Below, in pieces: positions 11,103 through 56,506 of a stretch of DNA of 60,634 nt; position 1 is the first letter of the stretch; every line of letters begins with the position of its first letter. The stretch comes from Candidatus Cloacimonadota bacterium (lineage in GTDB: Bacteria > Cloacimonadota > Cloacimonadia > Cloacimonadales > JAIOQZ01). Both the position numbers and the translations under genes were made by a program. Under the pieces are notes generated by a model. That model was not told the DNA's origin. It made no database searches and worked only from the letters and a program-made list of their open reading frames with translations. The stretch is taken from assembly GCA_021108395.1 (NCBI GenBank), contig JAIOQZ010000060.1:1-60634 (forward strand), in the 5' to 3' direction.

Positions 11103-16143
<5,041 letters not shown>

Positions 16144-16147
<4 letters not shown>

Positions 16148-42431: not shown

Positions 42432-43118
42432 ATGACTTACAACGAAGCAGACACGAGAGCGAAACTTATCGATCCGGTCATTCACAAACGTGGCTGGAAC
42501 GAAGACCTGATACGCCGCGAGGTGACAGCCGGAAAGGTTGAGATATATGGTGGTAAAGGCAGGCGTCGAACTGGTGGGACCATCGATTATGTGCTTCGCG
42601 TCAAGGTGAACGTGGATACGCAACCGGTGGCGCTGGCGCTCATCGAAGCAAAGAAAGAGAGCCTGCCGCCCGGTCACGGCCTCGACCAGGCCAAAGGCTA
42701 CGCGCACTGTAAGCGACTCAACATCCGCTTTGTCTTTTCTTCAAACGGTCACCTATTCGTTGAATACGATAACTTCACAGGGATTACCTCGGCGCCGCGA
42801 CCATTGACCGAATTTCCCACGCCTGCCGAATTGCGCGACCGCTACGAAAAAGGCATGGGTTTCTCACTCGATTCAACAGCGGCTCGCCCATTACTGCAGC
42901 AATACCCAGGCGGCGAAGGTGTCCGCCGTTACTACCAGGACGCCGCCATACGCGCCGTGATGGAAAAGATCGCTCAGTGCGAGCATAACGGCCGACCAAA
43001 GCGCGCGCTGCTCTCGCTTGCCACGGGTGCGGGCAAGACTTTCATCGCCGTGAACCTGCTCAAGCGGCTTCAGACCGCTGGTGAGACATACACACGTAAG
43101 ATGCTGTTGTTGAAGTAG
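42432..43118 (+). pseudogene. truncated type I restriction HsdR fused to a T9SS tail
   Basis: The frame codes for 228 residues. Up to about residue 212 it is the N-terminal part of a type I restriction subunit R. It carries a PD-(D/E)xK nuclease with IDYVLR (Asp52) and LIEAKKE (Glu72, Lys74), a linker LDQAKGYAHCKRL, and the first helicase motif ATGAGKTFIAVNLLKRL. There the family sequence stops. The last residues TAGETYTRKMLLLK are the end of a T9SS sorting tail like those of other genes here. The remaining 700 or so residues of HsdR (helicase lobes) are missing, so restriction activity is impossible. The junction must come from a deletion or recombination between an hsdR gene and a T9SS gene, possibly through a short shared RLQTAG stretch. 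Confidence 0.85.
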
Positions 43119-43142
43119 CAAGGACTGCTACGGAGATCAACT

Positions 43143-46100
43143 ATGAGTCACGGCCTGCAAGTTCAATCCAAGCACATTAAGAACCTCGACGAAAAACAAC
43201 TAGTGACATTGTTGAGGATGTTGCTGAACGCCGAGGCTCTGCGCTTTGGCATACCCCTCAGCAACATTCACGTTCCCGATTCGATCAACGTTGCCGATGG
43301 TGGCATCGACGGATCAATTCTTAGCTGTGGCTTTCCCCCAGACGGCTTCCTGAAAAACCGCAATTGCTTCTTTCAGGTCAAAGCGCGAGCACGATGGACT
43401 CCTTCACAGACGAAGAAAGAGCTACTCCAAAAGGGCAACCTGAAACCTCGCCTGGAAGAGGTTCTAAGCGAAACGGATGCAGGGTACTACCTGTTCTTGA
43501 ATGTGACGATGCAGGCGAAAACCATCGATAAGCATTTACAGGCAATCATCGAAGTACTGAGCAAGGATGGAATTGAGCAACCTGAGAGAAAGGCACATGT
43601 GTTTGACGCCAAGAAAATAGCAGCTTGGAGCAATCACTACCCGCTTCTGAAAGCATGGGTGTATGAGAAAAGCGGATTCCCACAACATGTGCCATATCGG
43701 AGCTATACGCAGGAAAGAGAACGTTTCGCGCGAAAGAATTCCACTTCAGTGTCTTTTGAAACTACTGAACGATTGGTCGATTATCAATCACAACTCAAGG
43801 AGGCCGTTCAATCCCAAAAGATTAGCTCAATCATCCTTGCCGGTCCTCCTGGAATTGGCAAATCCCGTTTCATTCTGGAATGGGTGAGACAGATGGACGA
43901 AGAAACAGCGTCGACGGGTTTGAAATTCAGCACTGCTTGTGTGTTTATGGAAGCAGACTCCATTGCACGAAATAGAATCGACTACATCCAGATGAACAAT
44001 ATTGCCTTCAATACAGTGTTCATTGTTGATAATATCACAATAGAGGTATTTGAATCCTTGAAAACAGATCTGCACAATGGCAACTTCCTTCTCGGTATCG
44101 CGCCAGATTACCTGCATGAGTCACATTATACAGGAAAGGACTATCGCATCTTACAACTCAAACCAGAGAACATGAAGCCTGTTGTGATAACAATGGTCGA
44201 AAATGCATTGCGTCCCAACGACCACAATTGTTACGACATCATTCGGTTTTCGGGTGGATTCCCTCTGATGGCTGTCCTGATGTTGGACAGAGCAAGTAAT
44301 GGCGAGCCTTTCGCGCAACTCGGGCAAAACGATCTCGCCCTCCGGGTATTGGGTCTGAAAAAAGGTGATGACGGTGAAAACTGCATCACAGCCCTGGCTT
44401 TGTTCAATTCATTCGGGTATGAAGATGAAGTAGCTGATGAATTCAAGGACATCATTGGTCATACTCTCTTGTCCCTGACGACAGGGGGATTCGATTATGA
44501 ACGAGGTCGCAAGATATGCGACGACTTGACTGATCGAGGGATATTAGAGAAGCGGGGGCGATTTCGTAGCTTTCGTCCTGTCCCCGTAATGCTGCAACTT
44601 GTCGAGAACTGGTGGGAACGGGTTGCGAGCCGCTATGCAGAAGTAGAAGATTTTTTGAAATATCTACACGACAGAACATCATCCGGTGGTCGCCATACGT
44701 TGTTAGAACGGTTTTGCCAGCAGATCGAACTGCTCTCCTGGTGCGAACACCCGAAACGATTCGTCAACAATGCGCTGGGAGCTGATTCCCCTTTTGTGTC
44801 CCTGGAAGTATTGAGCACAGCGTGGGGCGCTCGACTCTTCCATAGCTTTTGCTACGTTGCCCCACAGAAGGCTGCCGCGACGTCTTTTCGTCTCTTCAGT
44901 AATCTCGGCATTCCGCAGCTGCGCGAGATTAAAGATGGCAGATCATACCTTGTGTGGGCACTCGAAGCCGCCGCCTGGCACGAAGATGCCTATTTCGACG
45001 CCGCCAGAGCCATTTTCTGGCTGGCGCTGGGAGAGAACCAGTCATATTCCAATAACGCGACAGGCTTGCTCTTGCAGTCGTTTCACCTGCATCTTCCAGG
45101 AACCAAAGCCGACTTGCAGGAGCGATTGAAGGTTGTGCAATACATGTTGCGCCAATGGAAAGACACTGATATCGATTGTAGCGGACTCATCATGCAAGCC
45201 ATCATGCATGGACTGCCACAACAGCACTATACACGAACGCATACACATCCTTTTCAGAATGCGAACGAAGACTTTTTTCCAAACTATATACAAGTTACAG
45301 AATACATCGAAGAACTGCTGTCCATCTTGGAGAGGGAATTTCTGGCAAATGAGAAGTACTTCGAATCGGCATTTGAGAAGTTCTCACAGAATATGGACGG
45401 TTTAGTTAGTGCGGGATTACTTGCCCAACTAAAACGAGTCATTGATATTATAGCCGATAAGCTCGTCGTAAATGCACCTCTGATTGAATCGCTGGAGAAT
45501 TTGATCCGATATCGAAAGGAAGAATCGTGGCGTCAGCAAATCGAACTGTGGATCGACGAACTGAAGCCGTCCGACTGGATTGGACGCTTCAGGCTGTATG
45601 TGAAGCAGGAACTGGGCAGCGTTTCCTTCCTAGAAGAACGCACCGAGTCAGAGTTCTCCTTGCTAATCGATGAGCTGAAGAGCGACAGTTCGCTCTTGCA
45701 GCAGCATTTGGGTGATATCCTGTCTGGTCGTGGCATTGGCAGCGATGCGTTTGGCAAGAAGCTCTTTGACATCGTCGAGGACACAAGTGATTTCATCCAA
45801 GCTTGTCTCGATGAGACTGACGACTGGGAAGAGGCCCCGGATATCTATCTGCTGGCGGGTTTTCTCAATGCATCCACAGAACAGACGTTGTGGGAACAAG
45901 CTCTGGACGGCTTCATCCAGCGTAACCATCCGGACTGGGCAATTGAGTTGCTGACACACAAGGCTACGCTCATCGATGCAGACATCGAGAAGTATCTCCC
46001 GTTGGTAGAACATCATCCAAGCATTACCAGACAATTTGCCGGGTTCATCTACGGAAGTGTCACCAAGCATGTCAGCCCCCAGATGATTGTTACAATGGTC

Positions 46101-46958
46101 AAGTGTCTGGCCGAACAGTCTGATGACGGCGCCTGGATTGGATTGGAGATTCTCTCCATGCACGAATTAGGGCGACATGACAAGAAAAAGCGATACGGAG
46201 ACTACCAGCCGTTTCTTCAGGAGTTTGTGCTGATGGACGTATTCCTTGCGTCGCCTCCGGTGAATGCTTCAATGAGCACACATGCTTTGAAAGAAATTCT
46301 TGTCTGGCTCGTCAGGAACATCAAGGATGATGAGTATCAGCTACAACTGGCGAAGAAGTGTCTGTACGTGGTGTTCAGACCTCCTGAATCTCCCTATGCG
46401 ACCGATGATCGCTTCGAGGATTACATGAAGGCTGTGGCCCTGCATCGCTTCCCTGTCTTCTGGACCGTTATCAAGGATTACCTGCTCAAGGAAGAAGGCG
46501 ACTTCTGGATTCGCGAGATGCTGGGCAACCATCTGCACGACCATGATGCAGAGGGCTTGCTGTTTCGCCAAGCAGAGCACTACGATACTATCCTTGACTG
46601 GTGCAAGCAGAACGGCACACAAGCACAGAAGAACATCGCGTACATCATGCCTGTCTACAAGTTATTGGATTACCCGAAATTGAGCACAGCCGTTCTTCAC
46701 CCGTTTTGTAAGCTGTTTCTGCTTCGGTTTCATTCCCCTGATGTTATCCATTGGTTATCCATGAATCTTGGTTCCTTTGGCTTTTCAGGTTCCATTGTTC
46801 ATCATTTCCGAATGCACCAAGACGTCTACCGTCAATTGGAAGCTTTCGGCGAAGAACACAATCTATCCGAACTTATTGGTTTTGGTTCTCAATTGATTCG
46901 AGAATACGAGCAGCTAATCCAACGCGAAACACGGGAATCGGAAGAGAAGTGGATTTGA
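43143..46958 (+). CDS. STAND-like NTPase with N-terminal PD-(D/E)xK nuclease, putative antiphage sensor
   Basis: The 1271-residue cytoplasmic protein starts 24 nt after the HsdR fragment. At about 1-175 it has a nuclease-like pattern: Glu31, then GGIDG (Asp56) and QVKA (Gln78, Lys80), as in Mrr-like PD-(D/E)xK enzymes. At about 205-480 it has a STAND-type NTPase with Walker A GPPGIGKS (234-241), Walker B VFIVDN (292-297) and a GGFPLMAVLML motif (371-381) matching the GxP motif of STAND proteins. A winged-helix-like part may follow (about 430-500). The remaining 770 residues are helical, without clear repeats, and would be the sensor. Avs proteins, which recognise phage proteins and then cut DNA, have this order. 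Its place beside restriction genes supports defence. I cannot match it to a named Avs type. Confidence 0.72.
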   Translation: MSHGLQVQSKHIKNLDEKQLVTLLRMLLNAEALRFGIPLSNIHVPDSINVADGGIDGSILSCGFPPDGFLKNRNCFFQVKARARWTPSQTKKELLQKGNLKPRLEEVLSETDAGYYLFLNVTMQAKTIDKHLQAIIEVLSKDGIEQPERKAHVFDAKKIAAWSNHYPLLKAWVYEKSGFPQHVPYRSYTQERERFARKNSTSVSFETTERLVDYQSQLKEAVQSQKISSIILAGPPGIGKSRFILEWVRQMDEETASTGLKFSTACVFMEADSIARNRIDYIQMNNIAFNTVFIVDNITIEVFESLKTDLHNGNFLLGIAPDYLHESHYTGKDYRILQLKPENMKPVVITMVENALRPNDHNCYDIIRFSGGFPLMAVLMLDRASNGEPFAQLGQNDLALRVLGLKKGDDGENCITALALFNSFGYEDEVADEFKDIIGHTLLSLTTGGFDYERGRKICDDLTDRGILEKRGRFRSFRPVPVMLQLVENWWERVASRYAEVEDFLKYLHDRTSSGGRHTLLERFCQQIELLSWCEHPKRFVNNALGADSPFVSLEVLSTAWGARLFHSFCYVAPQKAAATSFRLFSNLGIPQLREIKDGRSYLVWALEAAAWHEDAYFDAARAIFWLALGENQSYSNNATGLLLQSFHLHLPGTKADLQERLKVVQYMLRQWKDTDIDCSGLIMQAIMHGLPQQHYTRTHTHPFQNANEDFFPNYIQVTEYIEELLSILEREFLANEKYFESAFEKFSQNMDGLVSAGLLAQLKRVIDIIADKLVVNAPLIESLENLIRYRKEESWRQQIELWIDELKPSDWIGRFRLYVKQELGSVSFLEERTESEFSLLIDELKSDSSLLQQHLGDILSGRGIGSDAFGKKLFDIVEDTSDFIQACLDETDDWEEAPDIYLLAGFLNASTEQTLWEQALDGFIQRNHPDWAIELLTHKATLIDADIEKYLPLVEHHPSITRQFAGFIYGSVTKHVSPQMIVTMVKCLAEQSDDGAWIGLEILSMHELGRHDKKKRYGDYQPFLQEFVLMDVFLASPPVNASMSTHALKEILVWLVRNIKDDEYQLQLAKKCLYVVFRPPESPYATDDRFEDYMKAVALHRFPVFWTVIKDYLLKEEGDFWIREMLGNHLHDHDAEGLLFRQAEHYDTILDWCKQNGTQAQKNIAYIMPVYKLLDYPKLSTAVLHPFCKLFLLRFHSPDVIHWLSMNLGSFGFSGSIVHHFRMHQDVYRQLEAFGEEHNLSELIGFGSQLIREYEQLIQRETRESEEKWI

Positions 46959-47142
46959 AAAGATAGGCAAGAAGAATGTGCATGTATAAAATGCCAGAGA
47001 CGTTATCGTTTCCGCCGAATTATTTCTTGTGCTTTTTGTGCATCTTCTTTCTTCTTGCTCATAATATGAAAATTCTACGTAGAGTCTACATGTTGTCTCT
47101 CAAATTGACTCCCACATGCATCTTGGATGCGAGGATAGAGCT

Positions 47143-50130
47143 ATGTCCCATGTTGTGATAGAGAACCCGGTGATCAACTCACCGTTCAAGGAACCAGACA
47201 AGCACTTCAGGTTTACCGATGAGGGCATCACCAACGAAGTGGACTCTGGTCGGAGAACAAGTCAGTATTTCACGCCTATCGCCCGATCCCAGAAGGAAAA
47301 GGGTAAGCAACAGATTCTCATCGATACCGAGTGGACGAAGGATCGCATAGAGGAAAACGTGTTTGTAAACCAGATACGAGACCGTGTCTCAAGGTGGCGT
47401 ACTGGCGGCTATCAGGGCGTGACCCCGGTAACCAGGAGCCTTCTGGATTACTGGACGAAGCAGGATCGCGAGAAGCCGTTGTTCTTCTGCCAGATCGAGG
47501 CTCTGGAAACTGCGATTTACATTGCAGAAATTGCCAAGAGATACAATGACCAATGGATTGACAATGAACTGATTGATGTAAACAACAGCTCGAATCCAGG
47601 ATTGCCGCGGATTGCTTTCAAAATGGCCACCGGAGCTGGTAAAACTGTGGTTATGGCCATGCTGATAGCCTGGCAGGCGCTGAACAAGTTCGCCAATCGA
47701 AGCGATTCACGCTTTACCGATGCTTTTCTGATTATCTCGCCTGGCATCACAATCCGTGACCGCCTTCGTGTACTCATGCCGAACGACCCGCAGAATTATT
47801 ATCGGTTGCGCGACATCATCCCGGCTTCCGACATCGACCGCTTGATGCAGGCCAAGATCGTTATCACCAACTACCACTCTTTTCTTCCTCGTGAGAAGGT
47901 GAAAGCGGCAAAATTGACCAAAGAGCTGTTAAGCCAGAAAGGTACAAGCGCTTTTGTAGAGACACCCGATCAGGTAGTGAGAAGGGTGTGCCGGGATTTG
48001 GGCAACAAGAAGGGTATCATCGTCATCAACGACGAAGCTCACCACTGCTATCGCAGGAAACCGGACGACACCCTCACAGGCTTTGATCGCGATGAAAAGA
48101 AAGAGATCAAGAAATGGGACAAAGAAGCCAGAGTCTGGATTTCGGGGATTGAAGCAGTCAAAGCGAAAATGGGCGTGAAAACCGTTTACGACCTTTCTGC
48201 CACTCCCTTCTTTCTACGAGGATCGGGTTATTCTGAAGGTGTGCTCTTCCCCTGGGTGGTCTCGGATTTCTCGCTAATCGACGCGATTGAATCGGGCATC
48301 GTCAAGGTACCCCGCGTACCTGTCTCCGACAACTCCATGACCGGTGAGCAGCCCACCTTTCGCAACCTCTGGTATCGCATTCGCGATCATCTCCCCAAGA
48401 AAGGCAGAGGTACGGAGTCTGTCGGTGGAAAGCCCCATCTACCTGTGGAACTTCAGGCTGCTTTGCACAGCTTGTATGGCAACTATGAGAAGTACTATGG
48501 GGATTGGGAGAACAATGCCGAATCCCGTGAAAAGGGCATCACGCCGCCCGTGTTCATCGTGGTGTGCAACAACACGAACGTGTCCAAGATGGTCTATGAC
48601 TACATCGCCGGCTGGGAGAAGCAAGTCGAGGATAAGCTGATCGTGCAGGCTGGTCAACTGGATATCTTCCGCAATGATGACGGCCGGGGCGAATGGCTTC
48701 AACGACCCAATACGATTCTCATCGACAGCGAGCAGCTTGAATCCGGCGAAGCCATGAGCAATGAATTCAAGAAGATTGCCGCTGTCGAAATCGAGGAGTT
48801 CAAGGCGGACTATCGCATCCGCTTTCCTGGACGCGATACAGACAACATCTCCGATGAAGACCTGCTGCGGGAAGTGATGAACACCGTCGGCAAGACCGGG
48901 AAGCTTGGTGAGCACGTGAAGTGCGTCGTCAGCGTCTCGATGCTCACCGAAGGCTGGGACGCAAACACCGTCACCCATATCCTCGGCGTCAGAGCGTTCG
49001 GGACGCAACTCCTGTGCGAACAGGTGGTGGGCCGCGCTCTGCGGCGCATGAGCTACGCCCCGAACGAGGCGGGCATGTTCGAGCCGGAATACGCAGAAAT
49101 TTATGGCGTACCCTTCTCCTTCATTCCTTGCAGTGGTTCCGCGAAGCCCGTCAAGCCCGGGCCGATTCCCACTCGTGTTCGCGCTCTGGAAGATCGTTAC
49201 GAATGCGAAATCACCTTCCCGCGCGTAACCGGCTATCGCTATGATGTTGCTGGTGAGCGTCTCTCCGCTCAATTCACGGACGACTCCACCCTCATCCTCT
49301 CCACCGAGGACATCCCGACAATAACCGAGAGTTTGCCTATCGTTGGTAAGGGGAGCATTCATACGCTTGATGATCTGCTGCGCCATCGCGAGAACGAAGT
49401 GGCGTTCCGTCTGGCAATGAACACGATGGAGAGGTACTTCCGTGATGATGAAGGCGCATCAAAACCCTGGCTGTTTCCGCAGCTTCTACGCATCACTCGT
49501 CGCTGGATGAACGAATGCGTGCGGCTCAAGGACAACGCCTTCATCCAGATGCTGCTGCTGGCCGATTACGCTTCGCAAGCCAACGACCGCATCTACCGCG
49601 CCATCGTGTGTGCCGACAGCGGTGAAGCCGTGCTCAAGCCGATACTGGCGCCGTATGACACCATCGGCTCGACCCGATATGTTGACTTCGACACAGTGCG
49701 CTCGGTGTACGCCACCGATCCCGCCAAGTGCCATATCTCGCATGTGGTGGCCGATACCAAGTCGTGGGAGCAGAAGATGGCCCAAACGCTCGAGGCCATG
49801 CCCGAAGTGGTGAAATACGTGAAGAACCACAATCTCCGTTTTCTGATTCCCTACACCATCAATGGTGAACCGCGCAACTATATACCAGATTTCATCGCCT
49901 GCATAGACGTCGGGCGCGACGACCTGTTCAACCTCATCATCGAGGTGAGCGGTGAACAGCGCAAAGAGAAGCTCGAGAAGGTCGCCACGGCGCGCACGCT
50001 GTGGGTTCCGGCGGTGAACAATCACGGCGGCTTCGGTCGCTGGGGCTTTGTCGAGATTGACGATCCCTGGGACGCGGAACATCTTATCCGCGCCACCATG
50101 CAGCAACTGACGCAACAGGAGAAACCATGA
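47143..50130 (+). CDS. type III restriction enzyme, Res subunit
   Basis: The 995-residue product is a superfamily 2 helicase-nuclease. Motif I ATGAGKT (about 162-168) and motif II NDEAHH (near 300) are followed by motif III SATP. Then come VSMLTEGWDANTVTHILGVRAFGTQLLCEQVVGRALRR, covering motifs V-VI. The C-terminal nuclease-like part reads YIPDFIACI, then LIIEVSGEQRKEK; the usual ExK lysine is not in the standard place, so activity is uncertain. I start at 47143, where GAGG stands 8 nt upstream and MSHVVIENPVINSPF fits the family. The stop overlaps the start of mod by 4 nt. With an intact Mod it would cut between two unmethylated sites. Confidence 0.93.
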   Translation: MSHVVIENPVINSPFKEPDKHFRFTDEGITNEVDSGRRTSQYFTPIARSQKEKGKQQILIDTEWTKDRIEENVFVNQIRDRVSRWRTGGYQGVTPVTRSLLDYWTKQDREKPLFFCQIEALETAIYIAEIAKRYNDQWIDNELIDVNNSSNPGLPRIAFKMATGAGKTVVMAMLIAWQALNKFANRSDSRFTDAFLIISPGITIRDRLRVLMPNDPQNYYRLRDIIPASDIDRLMQAKIVITNYHSFLPREKVKAAKLTKELLSQKGTSAFVETPDQVVRRVCRDLGNKKGIIVINDEAHHCYRRKPDDTLTGFDRDEKKEIKKWDKEARVWISGIEAVKAKMGVKTVYDLSATPFFLRGSGYSEGVLFPWVVSDFSLIDAIESGIVKVPRVPVSDNSMTGEQPTFRNLWYRIRDHLPKKGRGTESVGGKPHLPVELQAALHSLYGNYEKYYGDWENNAESREKGITPPVFIVVCNNTNVSKMVYDYIAGWEKQVEDKLIVQAGQLDIFRNDDGRGEWLQRPNTILIDSEQLESGEAMSNEFKKIAAVEIEEFKADYRIRFPGRDTDNISDEDLLREVMNTVGKTGKLGEHVKCVVSVSMLTEGWDANTVTHILGVRAFGTQLLCEQVVGRALRRMSYAPNEAGMFEPEYAEIYGVPFSFIPCSGSAKPVKPGPIPTRVRALEDRYECEITFPRVTGYRYDVAGERLSAQFTDDSTLILSTEDIPTITESLPIVGKGSIHTLDDLLRHRENEVAFRLAMNTMERYFRDDEGASKPWLFPQLLRITRRWMNECVRLKDNAFIQMLLLADYASQANDRIYRAIVCADSGEAVLKPILAPYDTIGSTRYVDFDTVRSVYATDPAKCHISHVVADTKSWEQKMAQTLEAMPEVVKYVKNHNLRFLIPYTINGEPRNYIPDFIACIDVGRDDLFNLIIEVSGEQRKEKLEKVATARTLWVPAVNNHGGFGRWGFVEIDDPWDAEHLIRATMQQLTQQEKP

Positions 50131-50909
50131 CTCGCAAGAAAGCAAGCAATCCCATCAAGGTGAAAACGCTGCAGCATAAAGACAAACGGGCCAACATCCC
50201 GACGGAAGAGCTGCGTGACTTCGTGGTGGAAGACGAGAACGACCCCCCAACGATGCTCTATCCACGCGACACCTCGCTCGATCCGCAACTGGTGTGGCAG
50301 GGCAAGGACGAGCAGGACAAGGAAGACCTCGCCGTTCCCATCGCGCCCATCTACATTCAGGAGAAGATACATCCGCAGGCCATCATCGACAGCCTGCCAC
50401 GCAAAAAGACGCCGGAAACGGACGCGCCCGACCTGTTCGCCGATTTCAACGGGCTGCCGGAGGACTTCGACCAGCGCGTCGATTTCTACCACCATCAGCA
50501 GCACTGGTCGAACCGCATGATTCTCGGCGATTCTCTCATGGTGATGACCAGCCTGGCCGAGAAGGAAGGCCTCAAAGGCCGTGTGCAGACCATTTACATC
50601 GATCCGCCCTACGGTATCAAGTTCGGCAGCAACTGGCAGGTGAGCACCCGCAAGCGCGACGTGAAGGACGGCAAGCACGGCGACGCCACCCGCCAGCCGG
50701 AGCAGGTGCGCGCCTTCCGCGACACCTGGAAGCTGGGCATCCACTCCTACCTGGCCTACCTGCGAGACAGGCTCGTGGTGGCACGGGAACTGCTCACCGA
50801 GACAGGCAGTATCTTCGTGCAGATTGGGATCGAAAACGTGCATCTGGTAAGATGTTTACTTGACGAAGTTTTTGGTAGTGAGAACTTTGTGTCGCTTATC
50901 CCTTTTTAA
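50127..50909 (+). CDS. Mod fragment 1: N-terminal part with DPPY motif
   Basis: This 260-residue open frame starts in an ATGA overlap with res and has AGGAG upstream. It ends at TAA (50907-50909), right behind a T5 run. It contains the N-terminal domain and DPPYG, but not the AdoMet-binding motif. The end FGSENFVSLIPF continues smoothly in the next frame as LTTGSQTSIGPASVTDFLLW. Confidence 0.8.
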   Translation: MTRKKASNPIKVKTLQHKDKRANIPTEELRDFVVEDENDPPTMLYPRDTSLDPQLVWQGKDEQDKEDLAVPIAPIYIQEKIHPQAIIDSLPRKKTPETDAPDLFADFNGLPEDFDQRVDFYHHQQHWSNRMILGDSLMVMTSLAEKEGLKGRVQTIYIDPPYGIKFGSNWQVSTRKRDVKDGKHGDATRQPEQVRAFRDTWKLGIHSYLAYLRDRLVVARELLTETGSIFVQIGIENVHLVRCLLDEVFGSENFVSLIPF

Positions 50910-50986
50910 CAACTGGTAGTCAGACATCGATTGGCCCAGCCTCAGTCACTGATTTCTTACTGTGGTATGCAAAAACAAAAGAGGTT

Positions 50987-51997
50987 GTGAAGTTTCGCCC
51001 ACTTATAATACATCAACCACGTCGCGCCTTAGCCCCGACTATCTCTTGGTTTGTCGAGACAAACAACCAAATAAGATCGTTAGCTCGGCACGAAGTAGCC
51101 AATCCTGCTTCACTACCTTCTGAATCCAAGCTTCTCTGGCTTGCTGATTTATTATCAAGAAGTGGTGGACCATCAACTCAGTTCAATGTTTTGTTCGACA
51201 ATACAAATTTCTTCCCACACCGAGGTGGATGGCGAACTAATCAAGACGGTTTCAAGAAACTTATCGCTGCTGATCGTTTATTTATTAAAGGCAAAACACT
51301 GCTTTTCAAGCGTTTCTTCGAAGATTATCCCTATACACCGTTGAATGCTCTATGGCTTGATACGCAGATGGGCGGCTTTGCTGCTAAAGACAAAGTCTAT
51401 GTTGTACAGACAAATAGAATTGTAATTGAACGCTGCCTCCTGATGACCACCGACCCCGGCGACCTGGTTCTCGACCCCACCTGCGGCAGCGGAACCACGG
51501 CCTATGTGGCGGAGCAATGGGGCCGGCGTTGGATCACCATAGACACCAGCCGCGTAGCTCTGGCCCTGGCCCGCACGCGCCTCATGGCCGCCAAGTACCC
51601 CTACTACCTGCTGGCGGGTTCTGCGGAAGGCCGGAAGAAGGAAGCGGCGCTGTCGGGGGCCAAGCTGGAGGCGAGCAGCGGCAAACAGCCGGAGGGCGAC
51701 ATCCGCAAGGGCTTCGTTTACAAGCGTGTACCACACATCACGCTGAAGTCAATCGCCAACAACCCGGACATCCGCGAGGGCATGACGCGCGAGGAGATCG
51801 ACGAGGCCATCGCCCGTCACGCGAACACCGAGTACCTCTACGACCAGCCGTATCAACTGAGCAAAACCGTGCGCGTGTGCGGCCCGTTCACCGTCGAGAG
51901 CCTGTCGCCCCATCGCGTCCTCGCCCCGGCGGACGAGAACATGGACGGGTATGTCTCGCAACGGAGGCGCAGAAGAGCCAGAATTTCGAGGATATGA
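50987..51997 (+). CDS. Mod fragment 2: AdoMet-binding part
   Basis: The family similarity in this frame begins at about 50906, ahead of the ATG at 50987. The frame contains the target-recognition region and DPTCGSGTTAYV, then WITIDTSRVALALAR. It ends in an unrelated basic tail (QRRRRRARISRI), produced by a second frameshift near 51940-51960. No ribosome site was seen before 50987, so it may not be translated. Confidence 0.7.
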   Translation: MKFRPLIIHQPRRALAPTISWFVETNNQIRSLARHEVANPASLPSESKLLWLADLLSRSGGPSTQFNVLFDNTNFFPHRGGWRTNQDGFKKLIAADRLFIKGKTLLFKRFFEDYPYTPLNALWLDTQMGGFAAKDKVYVVQTNRIVIERCLLMTTDPGDLVLDPTCGSGTTAYVAEQWGRRWITIDTSRVALALARTRLMAAKYPYYLLAGSAEGRKKEAALSGAKLEASSGKQPEGDIRKGFVYKRVPHITLKSIANNPDIREGMTREEIDEAIARHANTEYLYDQPYQLSKTVRVCGPFTVESLSPHRVLAPADENMDGYVSQRRRRRARISRI

Positions 51998-52755
51998 TTC
52001 TGGGCGAGCTGTGCAAGGCGGGCGTACAGAACACCAAAAAGAAAGAACGGCTGAAGTTCGACTACCTTACCTCCCATGCGGGAAAGTGGATTCACGCCAC
52101 AGGCGAGTACACCGATGCGTCCGGCAACCACCGCCGCGTGGCGGTGTCCATCGGCCCGGAGCAGGGGACGGTGGGTCCGAGGCAGGTCAACGAAGCCGCC
52201 AAGGAAGCGGTGCAGGGTCTCGGCCACGACCTGCTGCTGGTATGCGGCTTCGCTTTCGATCCGCACGTGGGCGAGGAGACGAAGCGCTTTGGCAACCTGG
52301 ACGTGCTGCCGGTGCGCATGAACCCCGACCTGGCCATGAGCGACAAACTGCTCAAGAAGACCGGCGCGGGCAATCTGTTCATGGTCTTCGGCGAGCCGGA
52401 CTTCGATGTGCACCACCTTCCCGATAACATGATGACCGTCGAGATCAAGGGTGTTGACATCTACGATCCGACGACGGGCGAGGTGCGCTCTTCATCCACC
52501 GACGACATCGCCTGCTGGTTCATCGACACCGCCTACAACGGCGAGAGCTTCTTCGTGCGGCACGCCTACTTTACAGGCGATAAGGAGCCGTATGACAAGC
52601 TGAAACGCGCCCTGCGCGCAGAGATCGACGAGGAAGCCTGGAGCAGCCTCTACCAGACGGTCAGTCGTCCCTTCCCCAAACCGGCAGACGGCAAGATTGC
52701 AGTGAAGGTCATCAACCACTACGGCGACGAGGTGCTGAAGGTGTGGGAGGTGTAA
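51994..52755 (+). CDS. Mod fragment 3: C-terminal part
   Basis: The similarity begins a little upstream (TEAQKSQNFED from 51961); the first ATG in this frame is at 51994. It covers the C-terminal domain with LCKAGVQNTKKKERLKFDY, GNLDVLPVRMNPDLAMSD and DDIACWFIDTAYNGESFFVRH. It would be silent alone. It is in the third frame compared with fragments 1 and 2. Confidence 0.65.
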   Translation: MILGELCKAGVQNTKKKERLKFDYLTSHAGKWIHATGEYTDASGNHRRVAVSIGPEQGTVGPRQVNEAAKEAVQGLGHDLLLVCGFAFDPHVGEETKRFGNLDVLPVRMNPDLAMSDKLLKKTGAGNLFMVFGEPDFDVHHLPDNMMTVEIKGVDIYDPTTGEVRSSSTDDIACWFIDTAYNGESFFVRHAYFTGDKEPYDKLKRALRAEIDEEAWSSLYQTVSRPFPKPADGKIAVKVINHYGDEVLKVWEV

Positions 52756-53393: not shown

Positions 53394-54950
53394 ATGAGAC
53401 GGGGAACTTTGCTGATTCTTTGGTTATTCGTATTCATCTCACTCAGTGCTCAGACCGAACTACAGACAATGCTGGTGTTCGAGTCACCAACTGATGGTAT
53501 GTATCAGGGACATTTCACGGCCAGCATTTCGGGCAATGGCGACTTGAACGGCGACGGCTTCAGCGACATCGTGATTCCGGGCCACCCCCTTGGCGAACCG
53601 GAGGACGAACGACGCCTCTACATCTATCTCGGTAGCGCGCAGCCCGACAGCGTGGCCGACTACATCATCGATGTCCCGTCTGTCGACCCTGGCGACATGG
53701 ATTCGTTCGGCAAAGCTATCGCCTATGACGGCGACCTGAACGGCGACGGATACAACGATCTTGTTGTGTCTGCGCCAACATACGATGGCCATTTTCCCGA
53801 TGCGGGAATGGTGTTCATTTACTGGGGTGGTGAGACACTTTCAACGACGCCTGATGTCGTGCTGGACGGGCTGGACTACGGCGACGACTGCTGGGGGCTC
53901 AAGTTCGGCAGCGACCTCGACACCTCCGGTGACCTTAACGACGATGGCTACAACGACCTTGTCATCGGTTCACCAGGCCCGTCACTGTACTGGAACGGGC
54001 AGGTGGACATCTTCTTCGGCAGTGATGCTTTCGACACGGATGTGGATTGGCACAGACAAGGTGAATTGGATGACAATCTTGCAGATCATGTCACGACAGG
54101 TGATATCAATGGGGATGGCTATGATGACTTGTGCTTCAGTGAGCAGGCTGGAGCACAAGGTCACCAGAGATTTGTCATCTATCAAGGGGGGGATTCAATT
54201 GACTACATTGCCGATTACACGAGTGATGACATAGCCTGTTCTGGGTTTAGTGATTTGCTCATGAAAGGCGATGTTGATTCAGATGGATTTAATGATCTGA
54301 TCGTTAATCGGAATAACCTCTACTTGATGAAAGGAGCTTCAAATTATTGCAATCCCTTGGAACATATGGTGATATCAGGAGGATATGGCGGCGTTGGCAG
54401 AGTTTTTTTATCACAAGAAGCCAATGATATATACGTTGGATGTTCATGCCCCCTTGATGCATCGCTTCTTCTTACTCAATACAGCGACTCACTTCTAGTT
54501 GTATATTGCTTCACTGGAAACTACTATCCACAAAGATTTGGAGAATTGACATACTTCATTGGCGATCATAACGGAGACGGACACAGTGATTATATCATCA
54601 GTACAGTGGAAACAGTAGATAGCCCATGGATTCTACGCATCTTTACCACAGAATACGTAGACATAGATAATGAGCCAATACCACCAGCGTCGCTCAATCT
54701 TTCTTGCTTCCCTAATCCCGCACGGAGTGGGGCGACGGTGCGGTTCAGTCTGGCGCAGGCGGGGCCGGTGGAGGCGGCCATATACAACATCCGTGGACAG
54801 CGCGTGGCCACGCTCGCCGCTGGGCACAGCTTCACCGCCGGCGAGCACACTTTGCGGTGGGACGCCGGGGACGCAGCCAGCGGGATCTATCTCGTGCGAT
54901 TGACCACACCACACGAAACCACAATAACGAAACTGCTGAGGTTACAATGA
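53394..54950 (+). CDS. FG-GAP repeat T9SS-secreted protein, first of a tandem pair
   Basis: The 518-residue product has a signal peptide (about 1-20). At least six FG-GAP blades with calcium loops follow (DLNGDGFSD, DLNGDGYND, DLNDDGYND, DINGDGYDD, DVDSDGFND, DHNGDGHSD), then a T9SS domain (about 430-518, FPNPARSGA, IYNIRGQRV, ASGIYLVRL). It would form an integrin-like propeller on the surface. The stop overlaps the start of the next gene by ATGA. The first 240 residues and the sorting domain are almost the same as in that gene, but the middle differs. Confidence 0.9.
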   Translation: MRRGTLLILWLFVFISLSAQTELQTMLVFESPTDGMYQGHFTASISGNGDLNGDGFSDIVIPGHPLGEPEDERRLYIYLGSAQPDSVADYIIDVPSVDPGDMDSFGKAIAYDGDLNGDGYNDLVVSAPTYDGHFPDAGMVFIYWGGETLSTTPDVVLDGLDYGDDCWGLKFGSDLDTSGDLNDDGYNDLVIGSPGPSLYWNGQVDIFFGSDAFDTDVDWHRQGELDDNLADHVTTGDINGDGYDDLCFSEQAGAQGHQRFVIYQGGDSIDYIADYTSDDIACSGFSDLLMKGDVDSDGFNDLIVNRNNLYLMKGASNYCNPLEHMVISGGYGGVGRVFLSQEANDIYVGCSCPLDASLLLTQYSDSLLVVYCFTGNYYPQRFGELTYFIGDHNGDGHSDYIISTVETVDSPWILRIFTTEYVDIDNEPIPPASLNLSCFPNPARSGATVRFSLAQAGPVEAAIYNIRGQRVATLAAGHSFTAGEHTLRWDAGDAASGIYLVRLTTPHETTITKLLRLQ

Positions 54951-56506
54951 AAACGTTAACGCTGCTCACGCTTCTCGCTCTGTGCGCACTGCTTTACGCT
55001 CAGACGGAGCTGCAAACCATGCTGGTGTTCGAGTCCCCGACAGATGGGACATACGATGGCCATTTCGGAGAGAACATCTCCGGCAATGGCGACCTGAACG
55101 GCGACGGCTTCAGCGACATCGTGATTCCGGGCCACCCCCTTGGCGAGCCGGAGGACGAGCGACGCCTCTACATCTACCTCGGCGGCGCGCAGCCCGACAG
55201 CGTAGCCGATTATATCATCGATGTCCCGCCAGTCGATCCCGGCGACATGGACTCGTTCGGCAGGTTCATCGCCTACGACGGCGACCTGAACGGCGACGGC
55301 TACAACGACCTCGTCGTTGCGGCGCCAACATACGATGGCCATTTTCCCGATGCGGGAATGGTGTTCATTTACTGGGGTGGTGAGACACTTTCAACGACGC
55401 CTGATGTCGTGCTGGACGGGCTGGACTACGGCGACGACTGCTGGGGGCTCAAGTTCGGCAGCGACCTCGACACCTCCGGTGACCTTAACGGCGACGGCTA
55501 TGACGATCTGGTTATTGGCTCGCCTGGCCCATCGTATTATTGGAACGGACAGGTGGACATCTTCTTCGGCGGAGACCAGTTCGACACGGAAGTGGACTGG
55601 CATTTGCAAGGGGATTACTGTGAGTTGTTTGGTGATAACGTGGCAACAGGTGACATCAATGGCGATGGCTACGATGACCTTGCTGTCAGCCAGGAGATTG
55701 CAAACTCAGACTATATGCAATTCCAAATTTATACAGGAGGTGAAACAATCAGTACAACTGCATCGTATGTAAGCGATAACATTTACTCGACGAATATATG
55801 TCAGTTGTTCATGAACGGCGACCTGAACGGTGATGGTCTTTCTGATCTAATCATGATTAATAGTACAGCTTCTGGAACAATGAATGTTTTATTGGGCGAC
55901 GTATATCTTGATTCCGTATTATTAACATACCAACTAGAGGGTGCATTGCGGGTAGTGGAATGCTTCTACTCCGTGTTTGACAACACATGTATGATAGGAG
56001 GGTCATCACCTTTAGATTCGATGATAGTCTTTTTTGAATACGTTGATGAAGACTCTTTGATTACGCAGTACTGCCGTTCATTCCAATCGAATGGATATTC
56101 ATCGGCGGCATACAATGTTGGTGATTTTAATGGGGATGGGCATGGGGATATCTTACAAAGCTCATTCGAAGATAGTGATAACTGGCAAATATGCATCCTC
56201 ACCACCGAGTATGTAGACATTGGCGATGAACCATCGCCACATCCATCGCTCGCCTTCGCCTGCTTCCCCAATCCCACGCGAGGTGGTGCTACCGTGCGGT
56301 TCAGTTTGGCGCAGGCGGGGCCGGTAGATGCGGCGGTGTACAACACCCGCGGCCAGCGCGTGGCCACGCTCGCCGCTGGGCACAGTTTCACCGCCGGCGA
56401 GCACACTTTGCGGTGGGACGCCGGGGACGCAGCCAGCGGGATCTACCTTGTACGTATGGCGCATGCATTGGGATCAACCACCAGTAAGCTCGTTTTATTG
56501 AAATAA
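54947..56506 (+). CDS. FG-GAP repeat T9SS-secreted protein, second of a tandem pair
   Basis: The start at 54947 overlaps the upstream stop and has GAGG 5 nt before it. The 519-residue product has its own signal peptide (about 1-19). The order of blades is the same as in the upstream gene, and the T9SS domain has FPNPTRGGA and YNTRGQRV. A 169-nt block (55322-55490) is identical to 53772-53940, and the sorting-domain DNA is nearly identical. About 190 residues between them (roughly 235-425) are only distantly alike. Duplication followed by gene conversion or selection on the middle part is likely. Confidence 0.9.
   Translation: MKTLTLLTLLALCALLYAQTELQTMLVFESPTDGTYDGHFGENISGNGDLNGDGFSDIVIPGHPLGEPEDERRLYIYLGGAQPDSVADYIIDVPPVDPGDMDSFGRFIAYDGDLNGDGYNDLVVAAPTYDGHFPDAGMVFIYWGGETLSTTPDVVLDGLDYGDDCWGLKFGSDLDTSGDLNGDGYDDLVIGSPGPSYYWNGQVDIFFGGDQFDTEVDWHLQGDYCELFGDNVATGDINGDGYDDLAVSQEIANSDYMQFQIYTGGETISTTASYVSDNIYSTNICQLFMNGDLNGDGLSDLIMINSTASGTMNVLLGDVYLDSVLLTYQLEGALRVVECFYSVFDNTCMIGGSSPLDSMIVFFEYVDEDSLITQYCRSFQSNGYSSAAYNVGDFNGDGHGDILQSSFEDSDNWQICILTTEYVDIGDEPSPHPSLAFACFPNPTRGGATVRFSLAQAGPVDAAVYNTRGQRVATLAAGHSFTAGEHTLRWDAGDAASGIYLVRMAHALGSTTSKLVLLK

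Follow-up and report, generated by a model that had tools for sequence, protein, structure and literature searches.

Two groups of described proteins are closest to the protein treated here. According to the passages of Vassallo et al. 2022 that concern it, PD-λ-4 (PD-λ-4_A/B; PADLOC PDLC03991/PDLC03992) is one of the systems selected experimentally against λvir in E. coli (PMC9519451), and the corresponding passage of a later review gives it as a P-loop NTPase system, outside the PD-(D/E)xK list (PMC10952713). The Avs (AVAST) proteins Avs1-4 have been summarised as nuclease effectors for which phage proteins act as triggers (PMC12931631). Our analysis concerns P0001, a protein of 1271 aa encoded in a stretch of 60,634 nucleotides from a Candidatus Cloacimonadota bacterium (hereafter the window, to whose forward strand all coordinates refer unless another locus is named). 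P0001 has nuclease motifs and a nuclease profile match, a STAND fold with its motifs and a solenoid fold; it is homologous to a tested defence protein, and its family occurs in mobile and defence-rich contexts. The preliminary description had presented it as a new Avs-like defence protein. Novelty has to be given up: by sequence comparison, P0001 is of a kind already known, namely a distant full-length homologue of PD-λ-4_A; the anti-phage role guessed for it is probably sound. What has apparently not been pointed out before is the Avs/NLR-like design of the PD-λ-4_A family. If PD-λ-4_A is read as a nuclease-STAND-solenoid receptor, a phage-selected E. coli system and its relatives annotated as 'hypothetical protein' become testable NLR-like sensors; this reading names residues to mutate (Lys80 and Lys240) and predicts that phage specificity is set by the distal solenoid.

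Gene and domain architecture of P0001

The gene (43143..46958, +) is an intact open reading frame with an ATG start, preceded at a distance of 7 nt by a GGAG ribosome-binding site (43132..43135). Its 1271 codons compare with a maximal stop-free run of 283 codons when the mononucleotides of the whole window were shuffled 20 times. Both the frame and the motifs that had been read from it are confirmed, i.e. Glu31, Asp56, Gln78-x-Lys80, GPPGIGKS (234-241), VFIVDN (292-297) and GGFPLMAVLML (371-381). Searched as a single sequence, P0001 gives a weak AAA signal and nothing else in Pfam, and chance calmodulin matches only in the PDB.

Residues 1-180 (43143..43682) form an Mrr-type PD-(D/E)xK nuclease domain, the predicted effector, modelled by AF2 with a pLDDT of mostly 80-98. 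Because a PDB sequence search with the nuclease profile returned no credible match, a profile-profile comparison with Mrr_cat (PF04471) was used. Against a set of 14 Mrr_cat domains drawn from related genomes, hhalign aligns residues 15-161 with a probability of 86% and an E-value of 5e-6, bringing the DGGxD and QxK motifs into register; the controls, four further segments of P0001 and five profiles with shuffled columns, yielded no match to Mrr_cat. A comparison with the DUF4365 profile was negative, and one relative matches DUF4365 weakly. Asp52, Gly53, Gly54, Asp56, Gln78 and Lys80 are invariant in 61 homologues, whose search pattern included DGG-D (Asp52-Asp56) but neither Gln78 nor Lys80. 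In an unbiased set of plasmid homologues found by tblastn, Asp52-Asp56 are nearly invariant too, and Gln78 and Lys80 are invariant. Hence Asp56 (43308..43310) is the predicted catalytic Asp of DGGxD, and Gln78-x-Lys80 (43374..43382), which aligns with the QxK of Mrr, is the predicted catalytic motif. The Mrr-type assignment in the preliminary description is thereby upheld, and a PD-(D/E)xK fold is predicted at the N-terminus, where its absence would have told against the description. The role given there to Glu31 is upheld in part: the residue is conserved in more than 90% of the 61 homologues, but in the profile-profile alignment it is off the Glu of Mrr helix 1, lying later on that helix. 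Stand-alone Mrr proteins also differ from P0001 in having neither STAND domain nor solenoid.

The nuclease is followed by a STAND/NB-ARC-type NTPase core (residues 205-400; 43755..44342). It contains the Walker A motif GPPGIGKS (residues 234-241; 43842..43865), the Walker B motif VFIVDN (residues 292-297; 44016..44033) and GGFPLMA (residues 371-377; 44253..44273), a STAND GxP-type motif. Across the 61 homologues, Gly234, Gly237, Gly239, Lys240 and Gly372 are invariant, as is Pro479, and Asp296 of Walker B is conserved in more than 90%. The secondary structure of the AF2 model indicates a winged-helix subdomain in residues 401-500 (44343..44642). Searched against the PDB, the family STAND profile matches the NB-ARC domain of NRC1 (E-value 5e-7) and also Apaf-1. 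The AF2 model of residues 1-560 has a pLDDT of 88.5 and a pTM of 0.86; in a Foldseek search of the PDB its first match is Avs3-terminase and its third Avs4-portal, followed by SAMD9, Apaf-1, CED-4 and the AVAST5 filament. The TM-scores to Avs3 and Avs4, normalised by query, are low (0.23-0.30), probably as a result of differing or uncertain domain orientation. Taken together, P-loop, Walker B, GxP motif, winged helix and structural matches bear out the STAND core that had been claimed. P0001 thus shares the ATPase switch of Apaf-1, CED-4 and plant NRC proteins, but these carry other effector and sensor domains. Within its own family the STAND domain of P0001 is unusually divergent, with a mean identity of 17% to relatives versus 27% within the family, and it lacks the family residues Arg231 and Cys298 (Ile at 298).

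The remainder of the protein, residues 501-1271 (44643..46955), is predicted to be an all-helical HEAT-like solenoid. The AF2 model of residues 480-1271 is nearly all helical (pLDDT 88.9, pTM 0.78), and in Foldseek it resembles karyopherin and HEAT proteins, though weakly; the best matches are not Avs proteins. Mean pairwise identity in the family is 0.29 for the nuclease but 0.19 for the distal solenoid, the fastest-evolving part. Such a gradient is as expected for a variable sensor, and it would fit a loosely constrained scaffold equally well; we infer that the solenoid senses a phage protein. The preliminary description recognised no family for this region, which turns out to be common to PD-λ-4_A proteins.

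Family membership, distribution and restriction-gene setting

PD-λ-4_A is the best family for P0001 in PADLOC, with an E-value of 9e-27 over residues 7-721, and a whole-genome profile search adds a second stretch (profile positions 860-1039). A full-length bridge is provided by L003, a plasmid homologue from Thalassobaculum (Pseudomonadota): P0001 is 25.7% identical to it over 5-1269, and L003 itself matches PD-λ-4_A over 1-1260 with an E-value of 6e-111. All 61 homologues scanned match the PADLOC model. An E. coli gene with the same domain order and catalytic residues scores 2531 bits over all 1283 PD-λ-4_A positions; it lies in an integrase island behind ssrA and is followed by PD-λ-4_B. The A proteins are collinear over their full length (1283 versus 1271 aa), and nuclease and Walker A residues are the same in both; P0001 is nevertheless only about 17% identical to the E. 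coli protein, belongs to another lineage and has a divergent STAND domain. In addition, the E. coli copy has a B gene, whereas PD-λ-4_B is found in none of the 32 A-carrying genomes tested, including that of the window, where it neither adjoins P0001 nor occurs elsewhere. It follows that outside the E. coli clade the PD-λ-4_A-type protein probably acts alone.

The 80+ bacterial and archaeal relatives gathered have a near-constant length of about 1280 aa, the same domain order and invariant nuclease and Walker A residues; they are single genes with a median stop-to-stop length of 1281.5 codons. Relatives occur in 28 plasmids, 5 viral contigs and at least 186 stretches of genome contigs, the last found with an alignment query and confirmed by tblastn, and they represent many bacterial phyla as well as archaea. 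Single-sequence queries against viral and genome contigs found no relatives, and none of the phage records holds a homologue. The distribution is patchy: within the class to which the window belongs, 4 of 125 genomes have a relative, and a homologue of an Enterobacter member carried on a plasmid occurs in 173 of 5,426 complete E. coli genomes. The tree mixes phyla and domains: a Bordetella gene groups with one from a Sphingobium plasmid, and Brocadia clusters with Methanosarcinales and Aenigmatarchaeota. In this tree P0001 branches deeply and on its own (end branch 1.47), and its exact position is uncertain.

The restriction-gene setting given for P0001 in the preliminary description is real. 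Upstream, at a distance of 24 bp, lies a truncated hsdR of the EcoAI type (42432..43118), which matches positions 2-212 of 768 of the NCBIfam model restrict_EcoAI and stops just after Walker A; from the look of the break, the rest may have been lost through a deletion or when P0001 arrived. Downstream follow an intact restriction endonuclease of the BPTD_3080 family (47116..50130; NCBIfam, 1193.6 bits against a cut-off of 800) and a type III methyltransferase gene, mod (50127..52755). Translation in three frames shows mod to be spread over all of them by two frameshifts, with pieces matching positions 78-294 and 705-982 of the 983 in PADLOC MTase_III; no tandem repeat that would explain the frameshifts is present at the joints, so that mod is either a pseudogene or affected by assembly errors. 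The G+C content of P0001 is 0.48 versus 0.54-0.62 in the restriction-modification genes, which suggests that P0001 arrived separately from them. Elsewhere in the window, 12236-16147 encodes a protein of 1303 aa that has HEAT-like (NblB-type) repeats close to the C-terminus, and an overlapping gene of 265 aa with no NCBIfam match follows it; at 53394-56506 lie two FG-GAP repeat proteins in tandem, both ending in a type IX secretion tail. No Rfam elements were found in the window.

Proposed mechanism and rival explanations

We consider it likely that P0001, as a member of the PD-λ-4_A family with an Avs/NLR-like build, acts as an immune receptor against phages and does so as a single protein. 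In the resting state, P0001 would be kept inactive by its solenoid and by the STAND module with ADP bound. Upon infection the solenoid would bind a molecule produced by the phage, a conserved phage protein being the likeliest candidate, and nucleotide exchange would then allow the STAND modules to assemble. Assembly would gather the N-terminal nucleases, which would cut DNA of the phage and probably of the host, and the infected cell would cease phage production. This sequence of sensing, STAND assembly and DNA cleavage appears likeliest because of the analogy with Avs proteins; it is by analogy that we infer the trigger, oligomerisation, DNA as the substrate and cell death. Vassallo et al. 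report that, of 11 systems containing a domain for DNA binding or cleavage, 7 conferred direct immunity (PMC9519451), and for this reason cell death is not certain for P0001. The divergent STAND domain, the missing PD-λ-4_B and the low TM-scores to Avs proteins also weigh against this reading of P0001.

How close P0001 stands to the Avs proteins depends on whether architecture or sequence is considered. The succession of effector, STAND domain and C-terminal region that characterises Avs1-5 is present in P0001 according to AF2 and Foldseek, the sensor role being a presumption: like Avs4 and Avs3 (PDB 8dgf, 8dgc), it has an N-terminal nuclease, a central STAND ATPase and a long C-terminal region, and these two are the top PDB fold matches of its N-terminal 560 residues. 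One could therefore regard P0001 as a true Avs4- or Avs2-type AVAST protein which has merely diverged and senses portal or terminase, the domain order being identical. We think this improbable, since P0001 has no match at E<=0.1 among the Avs models in PADLOC and NCBIfam, the 61 relatives have none at E<=0.01 in their N-terminal parts among those in PADLOC, a comparison with an Avs2-like protein aligned the P-loop alone at a probability below 7%, and the solenoid is closest to HEAT-like proteins rather than to Avs. On these models and this comparison, P0001 is built like Avs, yet is not a sequence-defined member of Avs1-5; 'Avs-like' thus holds for its architecture and fails for its sequence. 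STAND proteins may also serve other purposes, and STAND regulators such as MalT exist. P0001 might accordingly be a transcription regulator or a switch for stress other than phage, with an inactive nuclease domain that binds DNA without cutting it. That Asp56, Gln78 and Lys80 are invariant is more than DNA binding alone needs; moreover, the system to which the E. coli homologue belongs was selected for its defence against phage (PMC9519451), and the gene is carried on viral contigs and plasmids, so that we give this possibility very little weight.

The state of the neighbouring genes bears on two further explanations. P0001 could be part of the adjacent restriction-modification systems and assist the BPTD_3080 enzyme and Mod, either as an accessory nuclease or as a regulator: the genes are adjacent on the same strand, and one relative (L064) directly adjoins a complete type III restriction-modification pair. 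Most relatives, however, stand alone among unrelated genes, and P0001 is intact while hsdR is truncated and mod frameshifted; with the difference in G+C content added, such a partnership seems highly unlikely. The same broken neighbours, together with the drift of its STAND domain, could instead mark P0001 as a non-working defence gene, a divergent relic in a decaying island. The intact frame of 1271 codons, the retention of all predicted catalytic and Walker residues and the confident folding of the models argue against decay, which we regard as unlikely. Beyond the reading of P0001 as an immune receptor, we tentatively suggest, as a possibility somewhat short of an even chance, that the PD-λ-4_A family constitutes a separate, ancient and widespread NLR/Avs-like class with Mrr nuclease, STAND domain and HEAT-like solenoid. 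This class would be mostly single-gene, would have been transferred from phylum to phylum and between bacteria and archaea, with P0001 among its deepest branches, and may sense phage signatures other than terminase and portal.

Neighbourhoods of the relatives

Among the relatives in annotated records, some adjoin phosphorothioate genes, Argonaute, CBASS, Abi, type I restriction-modification and toxin-antitoxin genes, and others are without any defence gene nearby; plasmid or island contexts are scattered among them. At 20 loci, 120 adjacent genes match 99 PADLOC models (E<=1e-20), including Gabija A/B, SspB, SspC, SspD and type III restriction-modification. The 120 control genes, taken from the same contigs but far from these loci, match 34 models, largely look-alikes such as helicase, nitrilase and SIR2. 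The two figures are counts of models rather than of genes and carry no p-value, but they indicate the enrichment of homologues near defence genes that the preliminary description had led one to expect.

Other large proteins accompany the family at several loci. On a Rhizobium plasmid (L015:3807-7925, +; 1373 aa) and in E. coli (L025:3790-7557, -; 1256 aa), a PD-λ-4_A-like gene has beside it a protein weakly similar to the PD-λ-4_A family; the two proteins are 29% identical end to end, and the one from Rhizobium has an N-terminal HTH. Possibly they represent a sister receptor family travelling with PD-λ-4_A. On a Leptospira plasmid, an nSTAND3 protein of 1243 aa (L023:4115-7843) is encoded directly upstream of a PD-λ-4_A-like gene, of which it is a distant relative (family HMM E-value 5e-19). 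Upstream of yet another PD-λ-4_A-like gene lies a protein of 1259 aa that combines a calcineurin-like phosphoesterase with HATPase (GHKL) (L029:6086-9862).
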